This document shows positions 9,921 to 54,563 of a DNA stretch of 64,000 nucleotides, in pieces. The position numbers and the translations under genes were made by a program. The notes under the pieces are model-generated. The model searched no databases. It was given only the letters and a program-made list of their open reading frames with translations, and was not told the origin of the DNA. The DNA comes from a virus: IMG/VR virus record IMGVR_UViG_3300017963_000011, positions 1 through 64,000 of that record; one strand, written 5' to 3'. How positions within the stretch are numbered: position 1 is the first letter of the stretch; every line of letters begins with the position of its first letter.

Positions 9921-9934
9921 TGGTAGCGCTACCA
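9921..9934. repeat. Palindrome copy 4 (perfect 14-mer)
   Basis: TGGTAGCGCTACCA. It overlaps the TGG TAG end of the sigma-factor gene and lies upstream of the next minus-strand gene. Confidence 0.95.
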
Positions 9935-10579
9935 TTTGTAGCGTAAGAATTTCAACGCTTCATTCCTGATCTGTCGAATGCGCTCACGGGAGAAGCCGTA
10001 GCTCTTGGCGATCTGCGAGAGAGTTTCCGCAGGACCGCTGATCCCGTAGTGGCGCATGATGATGTCGCGCGATCTCACATCAAGCATGAACAATCGCTCA
10101 ATGATATAGCGTTCTGAGGCGTCAGAAATCGATAATTCTTCAGGCGATTGATTTCTTGCGGCAGCGGGTGATGGATGCCTGTCAGTATCGTCAAGTGAGC
10201 AGACGTTCTCGACCTCGAAGATCTCTTTGACTTCACGCAATGGCATACCAAGATATTCCGCGATCTCGATAAGACTCGGCGTGCCGCCGAGTCGGCGCTT
10301 GGCGTCGTCGATTTTGACTTTGCGATTCCAGACGTGATGTGGAAACCGGATCGTTCTGCTCTCTCGCAAGTGTTGGCGAATGCGTTGCATGATCCAGTAG
10401 GTTGCATAGGTGCCGAAGCGAACACCAACGTCCGGGTTGTATTTGCGTGCAGCAAACAGCAAGCCGATCATCCCTTCCTGGAAGAGTTCCTCCCTCATGT
10501 TGGGAGGAAACCTTCTGATCAGCTTGTGGACGAGTCCTTTGTTGTCAACTATGCGCTCTGTTTCTGTCATTACTATCAT
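9929..10579 (-). CDS. Sigma-70 family RNA polymerase sigma factor
   Basis: About 216 residues. Region 2 is clear (HKLIRRFPPN, EELFQEGMIGLLFAARKY, RFGTYATYWIMQRIRQHL), a short region 3 follows (PSLIEIAEYLGMPLREV), and region 4 has RDIIMRHYGISG and the HTH LSQIAKSYGFSRERIRQIR. It would redirect host core polymerase to phage promoters, probably a later class. It lacks region 1.1, and its size fits group 3/phage sigma factors. Two close ATGs (10579, 10570) are possible starts, neither with a good ribosome-binding site. It is preceded by a 280-base noncoding leader with promoter and terminator, and ends Lys-Trp inside palindrome 9921. Confidence 0.9.
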   Translation of the reverse strand: MIVMTETERIVDNKGLVHKLIRRFPPNMREELFQEGMIGLLFAARKYNPDVGVRFGTYATYWIMQRIRQHLRESRTIRFPHHVWNRKVKIDDAKRRLGGTPSLIEIAEYLGMPLREVKEIFEVENVCSLDDTDRHPSPAAARNQSPEELSISDASERYIIERLFMLDVRSRDIIMRHYGISGPAETLSQIAKSYGFSRERIRQIRNEALKFLRYKW

Positions 10580-10625
10580 CACAACTAGATATGCACGTAG
10601 ATGCGCGTTTGGTCGCGTACATGAC

Positions 10626-10672
10626 AAAAACCCTCCCGCGCTTCGGCTTTGTGGGCCTCTGCTCGGAAGGGC
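10626..10672 (-). terminator. Rho-independent terminator upstream of the sigma gene
   Basis: On the minus strand GCCCTTCCG and CGGGAGGGT pair (with two G-U pairs) around a 25-base loop that has its own small GGC/GCC helix, and the stem is followed by five T. It ends the candidate RNA about 50 bases before the sigma-factor start, so read-through here would set sigma-factor expression. Confidence 0.5.
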
Positions 10673-10843
10673 TCTTGTTGCTTCCACTTGCGTGGCACCG
10701 GACGTAGACGGCTAATCCTTCATCGCGTCTTTTTCCGGCCTAGCGTGAGAAGCCAGTCGGTACGGATCAGTCACCTCTGACTGCGCGCTTGGCCTTCATT
10801 CCGGCTTGGCTGGCGGTAGTCGCGCTTCCCGCTTCGCCCAAGC
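10626..10843 (-). ncRNA. Candidate structured RNA / attenuated leader of the sigma factor
   Basis: The 280 bases between 10580 and 10861 hold no convincing gene. On the minus strand a sigma-70 promoter (10850-10878) is followed by several possible helices: CGCTTGG with CCAAGCG, AGTCA-gagg-TGACT, a nested CCGGA/TCCGG around AGACG/CGTCT, a CCAC-GCAA-GTGG hairpin with a GNRA loop, and then a terminator. About 218 nt would be transcribed. It could be a stand-alone small RNA or a termination-controlled leader of the sigma gene. No known RNA family is recognised; tRNA and tmRNA signatures are absent. Confidence 0.45.
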
Positions 10844-15470: not shown

Positions 15471-15709
15471 ACTCCGTTCCTCTCAGTGTCAGTGACACCA
15501 TTGAGATGGACGGCCCAGCGGCAGATAGGCTTGTTCTTGCGGTCGTTGAAGAGTAACAGGGCGCCGATGCACTCGACGTGTGCTACGTCTTTCACGGGCA
15601 GTGCCCAAATGTCGCCATCTAAGCTGCATACCTCAAGATCATCATCGTACCTGGGGTCGTTGATGATCTTCCTGAATTCTTTTAACTTCATGCGGGCTGG
15701 GCTTTCCAC
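15467..15709 (-). CDS. Hypothetical protein (80 aa)
   Basis: Either a GTG at 15709, overlapping the upstream TAG and using the conserved GGTGA of the RLVKI tail, or the ATG at 15691 may be the start; I favour the GTG by analogy with the other RLVKI junctions. Short alpha/beta protein (FRKIINDPRYDDDLEVCSLDGDIW) with strands around it; not recognised. Confidence 0.6.
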   Translation of the reverse strand: MESPARMKLKEFRKIINDPRYDDDLEVCSLDGDIWALPVKDVAHVECIGALLLFNDRKNKPICRWAVHLNGVTDTERNGV

Positions 15710-16455
15710 TAGATCTTCACCAGTCTCCGTAGTTTCTTTCCAGATGGCTTCGACATCATGCTCTTGGCCAAATCGATGACTTGACGCATTGTGCCAAGCT
15801 CTTGTTGCGCGTGTCTCAGATCGTCCATCGTGATTGTGAATTCACATTTGACATGACTCCAATCTTTCTCGGTATCTATTTTCTTGATCCTCTTGTCGAA
15901 TTGTGACCATTGACTACGTTCCTCGGGCGGCTTCTTCAATTCCAGATACATGAAGAGAAGCATAGCAGCGAGGATTTCATCTCTGATCTCGTGGTAGCCT
16001 TCCTCATCATCCATGCCAGTGCTGTCATAGAATGAGATGGCATTTCCGTTTGGATCTACAATGGTATCGCCGCCGGCCCAACCTTGCATTCCGCCTTGTA
16101 GGCTGACGAGGACGTTTCCATTCTCGTCGGCTTCACTGATAGCTGTGCCGATGATACCTGGATTTGTTGATTCTCCGTTGAGATTTCCACCAGCGCCAGC
16201 GGTTACGAGATCGCCGGCTCGGATTGGGGCACCGCTTGTTGAGACGGCATTTCCGATTTCTACGACTCCATGCCGAGTTACATCAACAGCAGTTCCTTCA
16301 GCATGACGTGATCTGGGCGGTTCGACAGCAAAGACTTCGTTGGGCAGAGAGCATTGCCGGGCAATCATCTTTGCCATTTGTTCTGCCCATGCTGGTGTAA
16401 TTTCCCCGTTTATTTGAATCTGATTGAAGATGATGTTGTCGTTTTTCTTTGCCAT
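15709..16455 (-). CDS. Accessory protein with decoration-like beta domain, RLVKI tail
   Basis: 248 residues. Residues ~65-125 (GNAVSTSGAPIRAGDLVTAG...PGIIGTAISEADENGNVLVSL) follow the pattern of capsid-decoration (DUF2190-like) beta domains: a G-[IV] strand, I+AGD/GD turn, P.G.A and a closing V.V+L strand, as in the late protein at 24780-25181. An N-terminal helix (AWAEQMAKMIARQCS) and a C-terminal helical region (RHAQQELGTMRQVIDLAKSMM) flank it. It ends in RRLVKI. It is the second early-block protein with a virion-like domain; function unknown. Confidence 0.65.
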   Translation of the reverse strand: MAKKNDNIIFNQIQINGEITPAWAEQMAKMIARQCSLPNEVFAVEPPRSRHAEGTAVDVTRHGVVEIGNAVSTSGAPIRAGDLVTAGAGGNLNGESTNPGIIGTAISEADENGNVLVSLQGGMQGWAGGDTIVDPNGNAISFYDSTGMDDEEGYHEIRDEILAAMLLFMYLELKKPPEERSQWSQFDKRIKKIDTEKDWSHVKCEFTITMDDLRHAQQELGTMRQVIDLAKSMMSKPSGKKLRRLVKI

Positions 16456-47581: not shown

Positions 47582-48240
47582 TGCCCGTTATTCCTTGCGA
47601 TCTTATGGAGCAAGAGTTCAGAGAGCACAAGCTAGGCATGCTCATCGACGGGGTTTCCTTCGAGCAGGAAGCTAATCTCTGGAGTAACACTCCTCTGCAA
47701 ATTGCACAAGATTTGCACATCCAAGAAGCGTGGATCGAGTGGGAGAGTTGCAAGATAGGAGATTACGGTTTCATTGTGGCCATTCATCCTGAAGGAGAAA
47801 CCAATCTCAAGGCAAGTGCGTCTCAGGGCGCAACCTCTGTGAATGTTGGCGCGGCCTATGCGCCATATTACAATCCGGCGAATGGAAAGCGCTCCATAGA
47901 ATTCTGGAACGCTGCCGAAACCGAGCTTCTCGAAGTTCGTACCGTTACTGGTATCTCAAGCCCGAATGTGAACTTCACACCTGGGCTTGCTGCCGCTCGC
48001 GATACGACGGTAAAGGTCAAGCCGGTTTACGGTCGCTACGGTCCAATTCGCGGATCGAATGGAAACCTCGGCGGTTACAGGATGATCGCTTCGGGGGTAG
48101 CCCATATCGAGAATCCATTCTCGATTTCAGCGAGGCTTCCTTCTGGTTTCATCATTGGCGTTCGTGTGAAGACTGTTAGCACCTCTGGCACTCGACAGTT
48201 TGCCATCAACTTCTTATTCAGATCACCAGAAGATGAATAA
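47581..48240 (+). CDS. Structural protein in fibre cluster (219 aa)
   Basis: Begins MPVIPCDLMEQEF, with TAATG overlap to the previous gene. Residues ~70-135 (VAIHPEGETNLKAS...VNVGAAYAPYYNPANGKRSIEFW...) look like a beta-barrel tail module. The C-terminus overlaps the hydrolase gene by a few codons. Function unknown. Confidence 0.6.
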   Translation: MPVIPCDLMEQEFREHKLGMLIDGVSFEQEANLWSNTPLQIAQDLHIQEAWIEWESCKIGDYGFIVAIHPEGETNLKASASQGATSVNVGAAYAPYYNPANGKRSIEFWNAAETELLEVRTVTGISSPNVNFTPGLAAARDTTVKVKPVYGRYGPIRGSNGNLGGYRMIASGVAHIENPFSISARLPSGFIIGVRVKTVSTSGTRQFAINFLFRSPEDE

Positions 48241-48787
48241 ACGTGCTGGCGACATAGTGCTGTTCAAGGTGAAAGCCAAGCACCTCTGGAAGAGTCCTCT
48301 TTCGTTTTTAATAGGACTCTTTCAGGGAAGTCGCTGTACGCATACTGCCATTTTGTCAGAGCCGTCTAATAGCGTAGTTGTAGAAGCGTGGTGGCCCCTC
48401 TGCCGCGCTCATGCTATCGACTACGATCTCTACGAGATTGCTTTCATTCGACCTAAACTCATCACTGAAGGTGAGCAGATCTCGGCTGCAATGACAGCCC
48501 GACGCATGATCGGGACTAAATGTGCTTATGATGAGCCGGCCTTAATTGGCTTGGCCAAGTTCTTCCTGATCGAGCGCTTTCTTGGCATCCCGATACGTAA
48601 GGCGTTCTATAATACAGACAGTCCAGACAAGTATTTCTGCTCCGAACTCGTGGCGGTTTGCTATATGATGGCTGGCTTCTCACTTGCGAGTCTCCTCGGC
48701 TTCAAGGACTATTCGCAGATCACCCCGTCCGACTTCGAGCGACAGATCGACAAGTTTACGATTATAGAAAGAACCGAAGGCTGGTAA
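48233..48787 (+). CDS. Permuted papain-fold (YiiX/NlpC-P60-like) hydrolase
   Basis: 184 residues from ATG 48233. RAGDIVLFKVK, a CTHTAIL strand with the His and a downstream KYFCSELVAVCYMMAG with the Cys are the order of circularly permuted NlpC/P60 (YiiX/LRAT-type) cysteine hydrolases, with VVEAWWP and a WG-free ARRMIGTKCAYD region between. It could be a peptidoglycan-degrading virion enzyme used at entry, or a second lysin. No signal peptide. Confidence 0.7.
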   Translation: MNKRAGDIVLFKVKAKHLWKSPLSFLIGLFQGSRCTHTAILSEPSNSVVVEAWWPLCRAHAIDYDLYEIAFIRPKLITEGEQISAAMTARRMIGTKCAYDEPALIGLAKFFLIERFLGIPIRKAFYNTDSPDKYFCSELVAVCYMMAGFSLASLLGFKDYSQITPSDFERQIDKFTIIERTEGW

Positions 48788-49740: not shown

Positions 49741-50670
49741 ATGGCGAACAAGACCGCGCTAGTAGGAACGAACCGGGTCAATAGTTCTGGCGATCCAGCA
49801 GTTCAGAACTGGAACACGGGGGATACTCTCACTGACCCTGATGGCAATGTCATCCAGACAGGGGCTAATGCGCCATCTCCTTCTGACGCGACTCCTCAAC
49901 AGGTTGGCACTGGCACTGGTCAGCCTGGAACAAGCAACGACTACTCGCGAGCCGACCATGTTCACCAGACGAACGCGCAGCCCGGCACTGCTACTCCACA
50001 AGACGTGGGCTTGACAGGTGTTGTCGGGACAGCTACAGCTTATGCCCGCGAAGATCACGTTCACGGTGGCGCTGTCGTAGGCACTGCGGGCTATCTGGAA
50101 CAGGCAGCTACGGCAGCGGTGGCCACTTACACGGTGAACAACTACTCTGTCGGTGCTGATAACTTGCTCGTGTTCGTGAATGGCGCCTACGTGCCGAAGG
50201 ATCAGTATACCGAGGACAATCCAACGCAGATCACTTTCACAACCTATCCTGGTCTTCCTTTTGTTGGTAGCGAAAAGATTGTCACATTCGTACCCAAGGG
50301 TGGTCTGGGATTGACAAATCAGCTTTGGGAAAAACAAGTTGCTGGAGCAAGTCAAGCAGTCTTCAATCTGGCGGGTTCTTACGATGTCGGCACTCACAGT
50401 CTTCTCGTGTTTGTCGATGGGACTCTCAATCTCGTAGGCGCCAGCGAGGACTACCAAGAGACGGGTACGCAGCAAGTCACGTTCAACACTCCTCTTTCTG
50501 GTGGAGAAGAAGTCCTCTTTCTCGTTCCGCGAGGATCTACAACCGAGAACTCTGGAGCGTACAGCGCTGGAACCCCCGGCGACTGGAATGGTGCTCCGAC
50601 AACGATCGGCGATGCGCTTGATAGGCTCGCCGCAGAGCTTTCGAGACTCATCGGATATCCGATTCCGTAA
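49741..50670 (+). CDS. Fibre A: shared N-terminal adaptor, HxH motifs, VNG repeats
   Basis: 309 residues. N-terminus MANKTALVGTN...NWNTGDTLTDPDGNVI is shared with the next two genes. YSRADHVHQ and YAREDHVHGG are fibre-collar His motifs that commonly hold metal. Two VNG modules (LLVFVNGAYVPKDQYTE and LLVFVDGTLN) repeat, as in 44593-44862. Probably a tail fibre or its base segment. Confidence 0.75.
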   Translation: MANKTALVGTNRVNSSGDPAVQNWNTGDTLTDPDGNVIQTGANAPSPSDATPQQVGTGTGQPGTSNDYSRADHVHQTNAQPGTATPQDVGLTGVVGTATAYAREDHVHGGAVVGTAGYLEQAATAAVATYTVNNYSVGADNLLVFVNGAYVPKDQYTEDNPTQITFTTYPGLPFVGSEKIVTFVPKGGLGLTNQLWEKQVAGASQAVFNLAGSYDVGTHSLLVFVDGTLNLVGASEDYQETGTQQVTFNTPLSGGEEVLFLVPRGSTTENSGAYSAGTPGDWNGAPTTIGDALDRLAAELSRLIGYPIP

Positions 50671-50679
50671 GGAGATGGC

Positions 50680-51444
50680 ATGGCAAACGTAATAGCGATG
50701 ACTGGCAAGCCAAGCATCAACGCATCCAACGACCCTGAGCTTCGTAACTGGAACACAGGGGATACGCTGGTCACTCCTGATGGAAACGTGATCATGGTCG
50801 GTACTCCATCGAGCGCCGAATTGGCAATTCCAGATGGGGATGCCACGCCAGATATCAGTGGTGGCGAGAACTTCAAGACTGTGAATACAGTTTTGACGAC
50901 GATCACGAACTTCATCAATGGTGTCGCCGGAACCAGAATTCGCGTTAGAATCACAGACACAAATACCATCATCTCCGGTACGCTCACAAAGACGGGACGG
51001 ACGATCGTATGTCTCGTCGGCGACGTCTTTGAGTGGGTTTATGATGGTGCTAGTTGGATTCAGGTCGGTGGCAATGTAGGCATGGGTGCCTACATTCGGT
51101 ATCAGACTCCTATTGATGTTACTGCCGGCACCTGGATTGGCAATACTGTTATCGTTTACACAACGATTCCAATGGCTTCTTGGCTTCCTCGTCTTGGAGT
51201 GGATATGGTGCATGTGTCTTGCAAGGTGAATGCGTCGGCCGGCACACCTACTCTTTTAGCGAGAGCCGTTGGCGATACGGATAATACCCTGGCCCGCGTT
51301 GTAGCCAATTACACTACGGGTTTCTTTGGAGGCGAAGACTTCTTTGTCAAGCTGAATGATGCTGGCAATTTCGAGGCTAGATGGTGGACGGCTTTCACAC
51401 CGGCTGGCTGGAACAACCTATATCTTGAAGGCATCACACTCTAG
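50680..51444 (+). CDS. Fibre B with shared N-terminal adaptor
   Basis: 254 residues. MANVIAMTGKPSINASNDPELRNW..GDTLVTPDGNVI matches fibre A and weakly fibre C (51454). The rest is a new beta-rich domain (IDVTAGTWIGNTVIVYTTIPM...WWTAFTPAGWNN), so the three tandem genes share an attachment end and carry different tips, suggesting alternative or combined receptor binding. Confidence 0.7.
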   Translation: MANVIAMTGKPSINASNDPELRNWNTGDTLVTPDGNVIMVGTPSSAELAIPDGDATPDISGGENFKTVNTVLTTITNFINGVAGTRIRVRITDTNTIISGTLTKTGRTIVCLVGDVFEWVYDGASWIQVGGNVGMGAYIRYQTPIDVTAGTWIGNTVIVYTTIPMASWLPRLGVDMVHVSCKVNASAGTPTLLARAVGDTDNTLARVVANYTTGFFGGEDFFVKLNDAGNFEARWWTAFTPAGWNNLYLEGITL

Positions 51445-51453
51445 GAGGACGAC

Positions 51454-52047
51454 ATGGCAAATATTCCTGCGCTTGCGGGCTATCAAACAGCTAACGGAGA
51501 AGCTGCTCCTGCCAAGTTCGGCGGCAGTGATGTCCTTACAGATCCTAACGGGAATGTCCTCCTGACCGCTGTCGGTGGTGCTGGTTCTATCGTGCCATTC
51601 GATACTCCAGTCATTGTCATGGCATATAACAACACGCTCTATAGTGGAGCTACAACTGGCTCTCCATGGAACTACTCTAGCCAACACGCATTCAATGGTG
51701 TGATCGATCTTAGTGGCTTGACACCGGCAATTCCTTCTGGCGCTAAAGCTGTGATTCTGGTAACACTGGCCAATCTGTACAATACAGTGGGGGGTGCAGC
51801 GCGAGTCATTAACATGTACGCTGCCAAGCTGCATGCTTCTCTCCCAACCGCAGCGCAATACGTCATGAGTAGCGCATACCATGTCGGTGGCGTTGCCGCT
51901 GGTGCTGAAGGAGTAGAATACGATGCCAATCCGGGTTACGGTATTGTGAATTTCAATGGTGACAGGACCGTGGCTATAGCCGCCTATTCTAACAACAGTC
52001 CAAACAATGCGTACTGGTACTGGAACGTAGCCGGGTACACGATCTAG
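51454..52047 (+). CDS. Fibre C with shared N-terminal adaptor
   Basis: 197 residues starting MANIPALAGYQTANGEAAPAKF..DVLTDPNGNVLL, a degenerate copy of the fibre A/B adaptor. C-terminal beta domain (FNGDRTVAIAAYSNNSPNNAYWYWNVAGYTI). Short, so perhaps a side fibre or cap. AGGAGGACGAC precedes the ATG. Confidence 0.7.
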   Translation: MANIPALAGYQTANGEAAPAKFGGSDVLTDPNGNVLLTAVGGAGSIVPFDTPVIVMAYNNTLYSGATTGSPWNYSSQHAFNGVIDLSGLTPAIPSGAKAVILVTLANLYNTVGGAARVINMYAAKLHASLPTAAQYVMSSAYHVGGVAAGAEGVEYDANPGYGIVNFNGDRTVAIAAYSNNSPNNAYWYWNVAGYTI

Positions 52048-52581: not shown

Positions 52582-52595
52582 GTGTAGCGCTACAA
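52582..52595. repeat. Palindrome copy 16
   Basis: GTGTAGCGCTACAA immediately upstream of the ribosome-binding site of the receiver-domain gene. Confidence 0.88.
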
Positions 52596-52609: not shown

Positions 52610-53599
52610 ATGGGAAGGGATGGGGCAGTGGCCGATCAGATTAGAATTCTGGTCGTCGATAATGACGAAACATCTATCCAGTCTCTTCGAGACATGCTTG
52701 GTGAATATGATTTCGAGGTCGAGGACGTTCGGGATTCTCGCAAAGTCCTAGATCATCTTCGACAAACCAATGACTATTCTCTTCTCATTCTTGACATCAA
52801 CATGCCTCACAAGGATGGCGTGACGCTGGCGTCTCAGGTCAGAAATACTCTTCACTACGACACGCCTATCTTGTTCGTATCGGCTGATATCAGCAAGACC
52901 AACCTATCGCGCATTCGTAGAATGAGTCTCGGTGGCCACACCGTAGAGTTTCTGAAGAAGGGTAGCTTCAATTCAGAGATCCTCTTCAACGTAGCTATGG
53001 CCTTGATCAAGGAACGCATCTCCACAAACAACGTTTCTGAGATCAAAGGACGCGTTTCCAAGATGCAGAAATCCCAGGATGAGATCAAAGAAACAATATC
53101 TGATTTCATCCTGAAGCTGGAAGACAAGCCACTCGTGTCCATTGATCATTGCAAGGCTCAATCCGAGGAACTTGTGAAGTCCCTTCGCAAGGAGGTCATT
53201 GGCATCACCCTCGGGGAAGCTAGTAAGAAACTAGATGAGGCACTGAAGCCTGAGCCTCTCGCTGTGAGGATTGGCGCCGCGCTCACGGAGAAGCCCCAAG
53301 CTATCGAGCCTGCTCTTGAACCAAATCTCATGTTTGCAAAGACACGCCAAGCCGCCGCATGGAAGATGGCCGTCTATTTCTTGCTCGTTATCTTTGCTGG
53401 GCTCTGCATTTTCTGGGGAAACATGTGGACCAAAGCTGATCATGCCGACGATGGGGTTCGTAAGCTAGAGATCCAGCAAAAGCAAGTTATCGATACGATG
53501 CAACAACAAACGACTGCGATGAAATCTCATTTCAGGCGTCTTCAGAAAATGTTCAAGTCCAACCCAAGCATGTGGGTTACAACCAAAACGCACCCGTAA
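52610..53599 (+). CDS. Membrane-anchored CheY-like receiver protein
   Basis: 329 residues. Residues ~10-125 are a response-regulator receiver: acidic ILVVDND (Asp17/Asp19), phosphoacceptor LLILDINMP (Asp62), Ser91 (LFVSAD), and FLKKG lysines 116-117, so the site looks functional. A coiled-coil (residues ~140-210) links it to a C-terminal transmembrane helix (251-269, WKMAVYFLLVIFAGLCIFW) with a short exposed tail. It lies between fibre genes and the lysis genes. A phage receiver protein tied to the membrane is unusual; it may sense a host phosphorelay, or control lysis or host chemotaxis. No histidine kinase is in the window. AGGGGGT precedes the ATG. Confidence 0.8.
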   Translation: MGRDGAVADQIRILVVDNDETSIQSLRDMLGEYDFEVEDVRDSRKVLDHLRQTNDYSLLILDINMPHKDGVTLASQVRNTLHYDTPILFVSADISKTNLSRIRRMSLGGHTVEFLKKGSFNSEILFNVAMALIKERISTNNVSEIKGRVSKMQKSQDEIKETISDFILKLEDKPLVSIDHCKAQSEELVKSLRKEVIGITLGEASKKLDEALKPEPLAVRIGAALTEKPQAIEPALEPNLMFAKTRQAAAWKMAVYFLLVIFAGLCIFWGNMWTKADHADDGVRKLEIQQKQVIDTMQQQTTAMKSHFRRLQKMFKSNPSMWVTTKTHP

Positions 53600-53608
53600 G
53601 GAGGTAGC

Positions 53609-54103
53609 ATGGCACTGGTGACGAAGAACGATATCAGGAGTACGGAGACCCATTCATACGCATTGAAAGGGCTCGGTGAAATCCGATACGTCGATCTCCC
53701 CCGTGGCTACATCAAGATCATCAACGACTTCCCACAGAAGTGCCTCATCAGAGAGACCTTTCCCATCATCGGCACGAAGTACGTCCACAAGGTGATGGCT
53801 CCAATGCTGATGAAGGTGATGGAGTTCATCCGCCACAAGGTCGAGTACGATGCGGAATGGGAGTACATCCTTCACGGGAGCATCTTCAATCCGAGGCACA
53901 TGTGGTATCACAAGAACAAGCCGATCTCGATGCATGCTTTCGCGGCTGCGGTCGACATCAATCCATGGGAGAACCAGCCCGGAACGCCCGGCACCATCCC
54001 CCAACATATCATCCACCTGTTCGAGTCCAATGGTTTCAAGTGGCTCGGGCACATGGATCGACCCGACCCGATGCACTTCGAGGTGGACATCGATAAGCTC
54101 TAA
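53609..54103 (+). CDS. Endolysin, M15 family peptidase (VanY-like)
   Basis: 164 residues. The zinc-site pattern SMHAFAAAVDIN (SxHxxGxAxD) and DPMHFEVD (H..E) are those of M15 peptidases, which cut peptidoglycan peptide stems. No signal peptide, so export requires the holin. GTAAGGAGG precedes the ATG. With the following membrane protein it forms the lysis cassette. A terminator-like hairpin follows. Confidence 0.85.
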   Translation: MALVTKNDIRSTETHSYALKGLGEIRYVDLPRGYIKIINDFPQKCLIRETFPIIGTKYVHKVMAPMLMKVMEFIRHKVEYDAEWEYILHGSIFNPRHMWYHKNKPISMHAFAAAVDINPWENQPGTPGTIPQHIIHLFESNGFKWLGHMDRPDPMHFEVDIDKL

Positions 54104-54176: not shown

Positions 54177-54563
54177 ATGGCAGAGGAGAAAAAGTACAGT
54201 CCGTGGGAGAGCGTGATCTGGCATTTTCGTTCTCGGAAATCCAGGCTTGCCATGGCAGCGGTGATCGCGATAATCCTTGCCAACAGTAAGTGGGTTCAGA
54301 GCAAACTCAGCCTCGATCCCTCCACCATCCCGGCACTGTCCCAGAACATCGTGATCTGTCTCGGCATCATCATCGCTGCCGTCTCAGGAGAGAAGATCAT
54401 GATGAACGGTAACGGAAATGGGAAGACGCCCGATCCCAAAGAGGGAGTCACACTCAGCGTGGAATCCGTTGTCGACTTGAAGCTCAAGGAGAAGTTACAC
54501 GAGGAACTCGAAAAGGGCCTCGACAAACTGACTGACAAGATCAAGGAGAAACTCAACAAATGA
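54177..54563 (+). CDS. Holin candidate (two hydrophobic segments)
   Basis: 128 residues from ATG 54177 behind AAAGGGGGTGAGC. Hydrophobic segments LAMAAVIAIILANSKW (residues ~23-38) and IVICLGIIIAAVSG (residues ~60-73) are separated by a short loop; a long charged C-terminal helix (KLKEKLHEELEKGLDKLTDKIKEKLNK) follows. Together with the adjacent endolysin, this fits a pinholin/holin. No experimental basis; the long C-terminal coil is unusual for holins. Confidence 0.6.
   Translation: MAEEKKYSPWESVIWHFRSRKSRLAMAAVIAIILANSKWVQSKLSLDPSTIPALSQNIVICLGIIIAAVSGEKIMMNGNGNGKTPDPKEGVTLSVESVVDLKLKEKLHEELEKGLDKLTDKIKEKLNK

Follow-up and report, generated by a model that had tools for sequence, protein, structure and literature searches.

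Why does a phage carry, between its fibre-like genes and its lysis genes, a CheY-like receiver domain joined to a membrane segment, and what might such a protein do? The gene in question lies in the window (i.e., the 64,000-nucleotide stretch of DNA analysed here), which represents bases 1–64000 of a 105,134-bp IMG/VR virus record. The record carries an exact 123-bp direct terminal repeat, which makes it probable that the phage genome is complete. Searches for close relatives of this phage found none: the terminase-portal region had no megablast match among 50,697 phage records, and the portal protein shared 32% identity with the best of the matches listed. The genome also encodes a highly divergent family B DNA polymerase beyond the window (66584–69331, minus strand; PF00136, E 3.4e-36), with merely 22–26% identity to phage (cyanophage) enzymes, and a sigma-70-type factor within it (9929–10687, minus strand; Sigma70_r2, E 4.3e-13; Sigma70_r4, E 9.8e-11).

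The receiver protein and its phosphorylation pocket

The gene (Table 1) has exactly the coordinates given in an earlier sequence-only reading, and it is real: in 100 dinucleotide shuffles of the 6-kb region, the longest ORF reached 259 codons, compared to 329 residues here. That reading had also proposed a receiver (REC) fold, which structure prediction bore out. The Response_reg profile (PF00072) matched residues 13–101 (Pfam, E 8.5e-16), AlphaFold modelled residues 1–147 from a 36-row alignment as a (beta-alpha)5 fold (pLDDT 91.2, pTM 0.85), and the best Foldseek matches in the PDB were the receivers of CpxR, VicR, and CheY (CpxR and CheY with E ~1e-9 to 1e-8). Residues ~10–121 thus form a genuine REC domain, and this domain was not found to be a purely structural element of many phage fibre proteins, the outcome that the earlier reading had set against its proposal. 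The protein also matched phrog_731; as this is a PhoB-type response-regulator family, the match reflects the REC domain.

The pocket, which had been described as intact, is so only in part. The phospho-acceptor, switch, and lysine are kept, since D62, S91, and K117 align with CheY D57, T87, and K109, and the conserved lysine is K117, while K116, also named originally, falls in a variable column. The acidic pair, complete in CheY (D12/D13), reads D17-N18 rather than D17 with D19 as had been thought: N18 occupies the CheY D13 column, where 34 of the 35 aligned receivers have D, although some receivers (e.g., that of contig L016) likewise have N in this column. Pairwise BLAST gives an alternative register, with a gap at this point and D19 opposite the second acid, but we favour the N18 register because of the segment lengths and the start of alpha-1 at residue 20. 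A comparable Asp-to-Asn change in the acidic pair of PmrA (D10N) slows phosphoryl uptake (PMC12654582), and by this analogy the pocket is probably usable but impaired, with N18 weakening the predicted phosphorylation.

The window protein therefore shares with bacterial response regulators such as CheY and CpxR the REC fold, the phospho-acceptor Asp, the Ser/Thr switch, and the Lys, but differs from them in N18, in being phage-borne, and in its membrane anchor, where CheY and CpxR are a free protein or carry a DNA-binding output. Pfam detected no DNA-binding output domain in the window protein, and a profile scan for HATPase_c detected no kinase in the phage, so that a cognate histidine kinase, as expected of a two-component response regulator, was not found. 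Nor does the gene belong with the divergent cREC of jumbo phages, which are defined by linkage to NAD+/ADP-ribose processing enzymes (PMC7824862); its scanned neighbours are peptidase, tail/fibre, primase, and similar genes.

Beyond the receiver, the full-length model shows a helix at residues 122–172 that is continuous with alpha-5, a second helix at 178–211, a low-confidence stretch (204–244), the transmembrane (TM) helix, and a tail helix. A coiled-coil linker had been proposed, and heptad periodicity places it in the first helix: the signal was significant at residues 140–172 (shuffle P 0.0002), weak in the tail helix (P 0.02), and absent from 178–211. Hydropathy likewise supports a single TM segment (KD 2.13) within the modelled helix, but not its supposed C-terminal position, as ~55–60 residues including the tail helix come after it. 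The charge difference across this segment is too small to fix its orientation; the REC domain would be cytoplasmic because it needs phosphodonors. The last 89 residues had weak, non-significant matches to three Rz-like spanin families (PHROG; E 0.0072, 0.13, and 0.16), and searches of phages and the PDB with the C-terminal half returned no match.

Table 1. Features of the receiver gene, its neighbours, and the second family of membrane-segment receivers (window positions, except for contigs marked L)
Feature	Position	Strand	Basis
Whole gene (receiver, coiled coil, TM, tail helix), 329 aa	52610–53599	+	ORF/translation, full-length model
Receiver domain, aa ~10–121	52637–52972	+	Pfam, AlphaFold, Foldseek, column counts
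Helical linker, aa 122–211 (coiled-coil periodicity at aa 140–172)	52973–53242	+	Model, heptad shuffle test
TM helix, aa 240–274 (hydrophobic core ~250–268)	53327–53431	+	Hydropathy, model
Tail helix past the TM, aa 281–317	53450–53560	+	Model; weak heptad signal; weak Rz-like spanin PHROG matches
M15 peptidase, likely endolysin	53609–54103	+	Peptidase_M15_4, E 2.2e-10; starts 9 nt past receiver gene
Holin candidate, 128 aa, two hydrophobic segments, charged helical tail	54177–54563	+	Read from sequence
Permuted papain-like amidase (C92-like), same late gene run	48200–48787	+	PF05708, E 3.7e-4 (below its cut-off); phrog_1128, E 2.2e-14
Second-family receiver, L092	3992–4678
Second-family receiver, L095	3992–4693
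Second-family receiver, L110	4001–4702
Second-family receiver, L112	4001–4693

The late gene run around the receiver

The proposed location between fibre and lysis genes was confirmed. Upstream lie the permuted papain-like amidase and fibre-like genes with repeated N-termini, and downstream lies the M15 peptidase gene, which has a ribosome-binding-like AAGGAGG. The two-segment protein that follows matched no family in profile searches and is a holin candidate by its layout; past it there is one further rightward ORF, and then leftward genes. We consider the placement of the receiver gene in a lysis cassette well supported. As a separate observation, the three consecutive fibre-like proteins (49741–52047) share a repeated N-terminal motif of the NWNTGDTLTDPDGNVI type, and a leftward gene far from them (15709–16455) contains a related stretch.

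With its TM and coiled coil, the window protein resembles Rz-type i-spanins and XhlA-like proteins, which combine these elements in lysis cassettes, but it differs from them in its N-terminal REC domain and in the non-significance of its profile matches. A helix follows the TM of the window protein, but this TM lies at residues 240–274, whereas that of i-spanins is N-terminal with a periplasmic coiled coil behind it. No ORF with a lipobox, as expected of an o-spanin partner, was found near the receiver gene, and the sole candidate genome-wide lies at 94094–94297.

A palindrome upstream of the gene had been noted and is indeed present (52583–52594), but the 105,134-bp genome contains GTAGCGCTAC 35 times in all, this copy included, and regulation of the receiver gene by it was rejected because the palindrome is scattered genome-wide. 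The full element is the 16-bp palindrome RTGGTAGCGCTACCAY, whose core GTAGCGCTAC recurs in exact copies about every 3 kb (in the window, e.g., at 2169, 9922, 11906, 29736, 44129, 52583, 55616, and 62376), and 23 of the 35 core copies are centred outside called genes, though such DNA makes up ~19% of the genome. This pattern suggests a dispersed operator recognised by a dimeric DNA-binding protein, perhaps akin to mycobacteriophage stoperators; a polar one-strand nick site was rejected, as the flanks are themselves palindromic.

Receivers beside lysis genes in other phages

Single-protein scans of viral and genome contigs returned no ortholog of the full protein, with genome matches covering the receiver part only, and the gene was absent from the phages related by portal protein (18 records, fragments). 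Several apparent hits were discarded, and those receiver hits in the phage collection that were examined proved to be of bacterial origin: the "Pseudomonas phage Y1" match is bacterial DNA (a Che operon) deposited as phage, the "Listeria phage" and "Bacteriophage sp." matches are bacterial DNA with response regulator/kinase pairs, and the lone match to the pattern DINMPxxDG, in a structural-gene region, was due to chance. One protein from these bacterial-DNA records matched phrog_731 over its full length. Records OQ572403, OR846797, and MT835753 are such "phage" entries and would mislead surveys of phage signalling genes.

A fold search of viral proteins led to a CheY-like protein in the cultured Alteromonas phage V22, whose genes run tail fibre, chaperone, permuted papain-like amidase (so annotated, two genes ahead of the receiver), ORF29, receiver ORF30, ORF31, and ORF32. 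A 32-nt overlap joins the receiver gene to ORF31, whose product has a TM at its N-terminus and matches the Rz-like spanins of phrog_4297 (E 7e-6); the product of ORF32 contains two hydrophobic segments. The schitovirus A5 is arranged alike: its receiver gene, gp11, shares 35 nt with gp12, whose product matches the spanin family found in V22 (E 2.9e-8), and next come a two-TM protein and, as a further gene, an annotated endolysin. Both receivers (gp30 and gp11) thus stand, as in the window, behind the tail fibres where the late run ends, with spanin-like and two-TM genes as neighbours, but they are 147–149 aa long, lack a membrane anchor, and pair with a separate overlapping spanin-like gene where the window has one protein; pairwise BLAST gave no alignment between them and the window receiver. 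In the published accounts, the receiver figures as an auxiliary metabolic gene belonging to a host-recognition module, gp29, gp31, and gp32 are given as of unknown function, and the word "spanin" is absent from the A5 paper (PMC7289586, PMC10579305).

Two further Alteromonas phages show a receiver followed by a lytic-type enzyme and a holin, adjoined by a coiled coil-TM protein, an arrangement that we liken to the window. PB15 encodes a coiled coil-TM protein matching phrog_937 "hemolysin" (E 1.8e-16), a family which we take to be XhlA-like, then the receiver, an M15_3 enzyme (E 2.7e-13; M15-type like that of the window), and a three-TM holin (E 3.1e-16). XX1924 has a similar small protein, the receiver, a DUF5675 protein, and a holin of the same family (E 1.4e-14), so that between the two phages the enzyme was exchanged while the receiver and the holin family were kept. 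Here, the coiled coil-TM protein is a separate gene, and the two-TM protein of the window does not match the three-TM holin family. Among metagenomic contigs, L034 carries a holin-like gene (weak, E 0.0036), a coiled coil-TM gene, a receiver (E 1.3e-23), a membrane protein, an endolysin-type gene (phrog_315, E 2.8e-9), and the portal, and L099 has a spanin-like gene (phrog_1403, E 3.3e-5) ahead of its receiver with the terminase downstream. All six receivers keep the phospho-acceptor Asp and the Lys.

V22/A5, PB15/XX1924, L034, and L099 probably represent four lineages, with the window as a fifth. Its receiver, which adjoins the M15 peptidase gene, falls into a proposed group of lysis-cassette receivers defined by gene neighbourhood, the enrichment near lysis genes being judged by eye; at about 14 of the 16 other viral receiver loci inspected, some of them perhaps host DNA, no lysis genes were seen. 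Gene fusion is a classic hint of functional association, and the receiver and the coiled-coil/TM part, separate neighbouring genes elsewhere, form a single chain in the window, which hints at a functional link between them. The C-terminus of the window protein shares the layout of the partner proteins, with no significant sequence similarity to them.

The sequence-only reading had presented a membrane-tethered phage receiver as having no known precedent, but the window protein is not unique in this. A second family (L092, L095/L111, L110, and L112; 59–74% identity) combines a REC domain and a linker with its own C-terminal membrane segments, on contigs that carry homing endonucleases and other phage-type genes. 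It differs from the window protein in having two hydrophobic segments, unrelated to the window's C-terminus, and no lysis genes were seen near its receivers. Separately, a stand-alone receiver (L012, 5010–5372) and a PAS-histidine kinase-receiver hybrid with TM segments (L113, 1081–2793) come from the same 103.5-kb viral record and are possibly a phage-borne two-component system, or host DNA.

Possible roles of the receiver in lysis

The best explanation, to which we assign an even chance, is that the window protein is a phosphorylation-responsive, membrane-tethered lysis regulator. The coiled-coil linker and the one TM would tether the REC domain to the cytoplasmic membrane on its inner side, and the helical tail would project from the opposite side. 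D62 would probably receive its phosphoryl group from the host, either from histidine kinases or from small phosphodonors; no kinase was recognised in the phage itself. The signal would then run down the helix that extends alpha-5, reach the TM and the tail helix, and alter their oligomeric state, and with it how early or how efficiently the holin or endolysin acts. Of the roles first suggested, sensing of cell state to time lysis is favoured, since a receiver gene lies in or beside a lysis cassette in six other phage genomes, which make up about four further lineages; the regulation itself is what we infer from this comparison. Against this reading stand the failure of the scans to find an ortholog of the whole protein, the probable weakening of phosphorylation by N18, the C-terminus that agrees with the partner proteins in layout but not in sequence, the lack of an o-spanin-like lipoprotein gene beside the receiver gene, and the majority of other viral receiver loci at which no lysis genes were seen.

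Capture of phosphoryl groups could also be an end in itself. As a decoy or sink, the protein would, late in infection, divert phosphoryl groups away from a membrane histidine kinase of the host and mute an envelope-stress or other response, and its position beside lysis genes would merely set late expression. The tether would bring the receiver near such kinases, there is no DNA-binding output domain, and, besides the lack of a detected kinase in the window's phage, none exceeded the cut-off in V22, A5, PB15, or the fragments L034 and L099. Late expression, however, gives little time, N18 would make the receiver a poor acceptor, and the overlap and fusion with spanin/XhlA-like partners are left unexplained; this role is unlikely, though the strongest of the rivals.

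Ranking behind it, and likewise doubtful, is a phosphorylation-independent role, in which a membrane lysis protein of spanin-like or XhlA-like type would use its REC fold for dimerisation or docking. It would accommodate the replacement of a conserved Asp by N18, the coiled-coil/TM layout, and the weak spanin matches of the last 89 residues, but those matches are non-significant, no o-spanin candidate lies nearby, and the window protein retains D62, S91, and K117, in line with the other cassette receivers.

The published view of V22 and A5, an auxiliary host-signalling or motility gene in a host-recognition module moved among tail-fibre phages (PMC7289586, PMC10579305), we rate lower again, as improbable. 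Fibre-type genes do lie upstream in the window, V22, A5, and XX1924, but the immediate neighbours of the receiver genes are lysis genes, not fibre genes, the receiver and holin family stay together in PB15 and XX1924 while the enzyme differs, and nothing ties the protein to flagellar targets; interference with motility, suggested by the sequence-only reading, likewise found nothing pointing to it. That it is a virion or other unrelated membrane protein with accidental lysis-gene neighbours is very improbable, for although it directly follows fibre-like genes and has no orthologs in which conservation of the arrangement could show, about four other lineages show this neighbourhood too.

Beyond this one protein, the lysis-regulator reading raises the possibility, which we hold tentatively and at somewhat less than even probability, of an unrecognised class of receivers fused or paired with spanin/XhlA-like proteins, through which lysis would depend on the phosphorylation state of the host. 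The usual account of lysis timing invokes the holin itself and antiholins; receivers recurrent among holin, spanin-like, and endolysin genes would tie host two-component signalling directly to the lysis decision. A role in lysis would also explain what phage "CheY-like auxiliary genes", so far attributed to signalling or host recognition, do, and the cultured Alteromonas phages make the idea of lysis control testable at once. If it is true, host two-component signalling tells the phage when to burst the cell, and the window protein would be the fused, single-chain form of this device.
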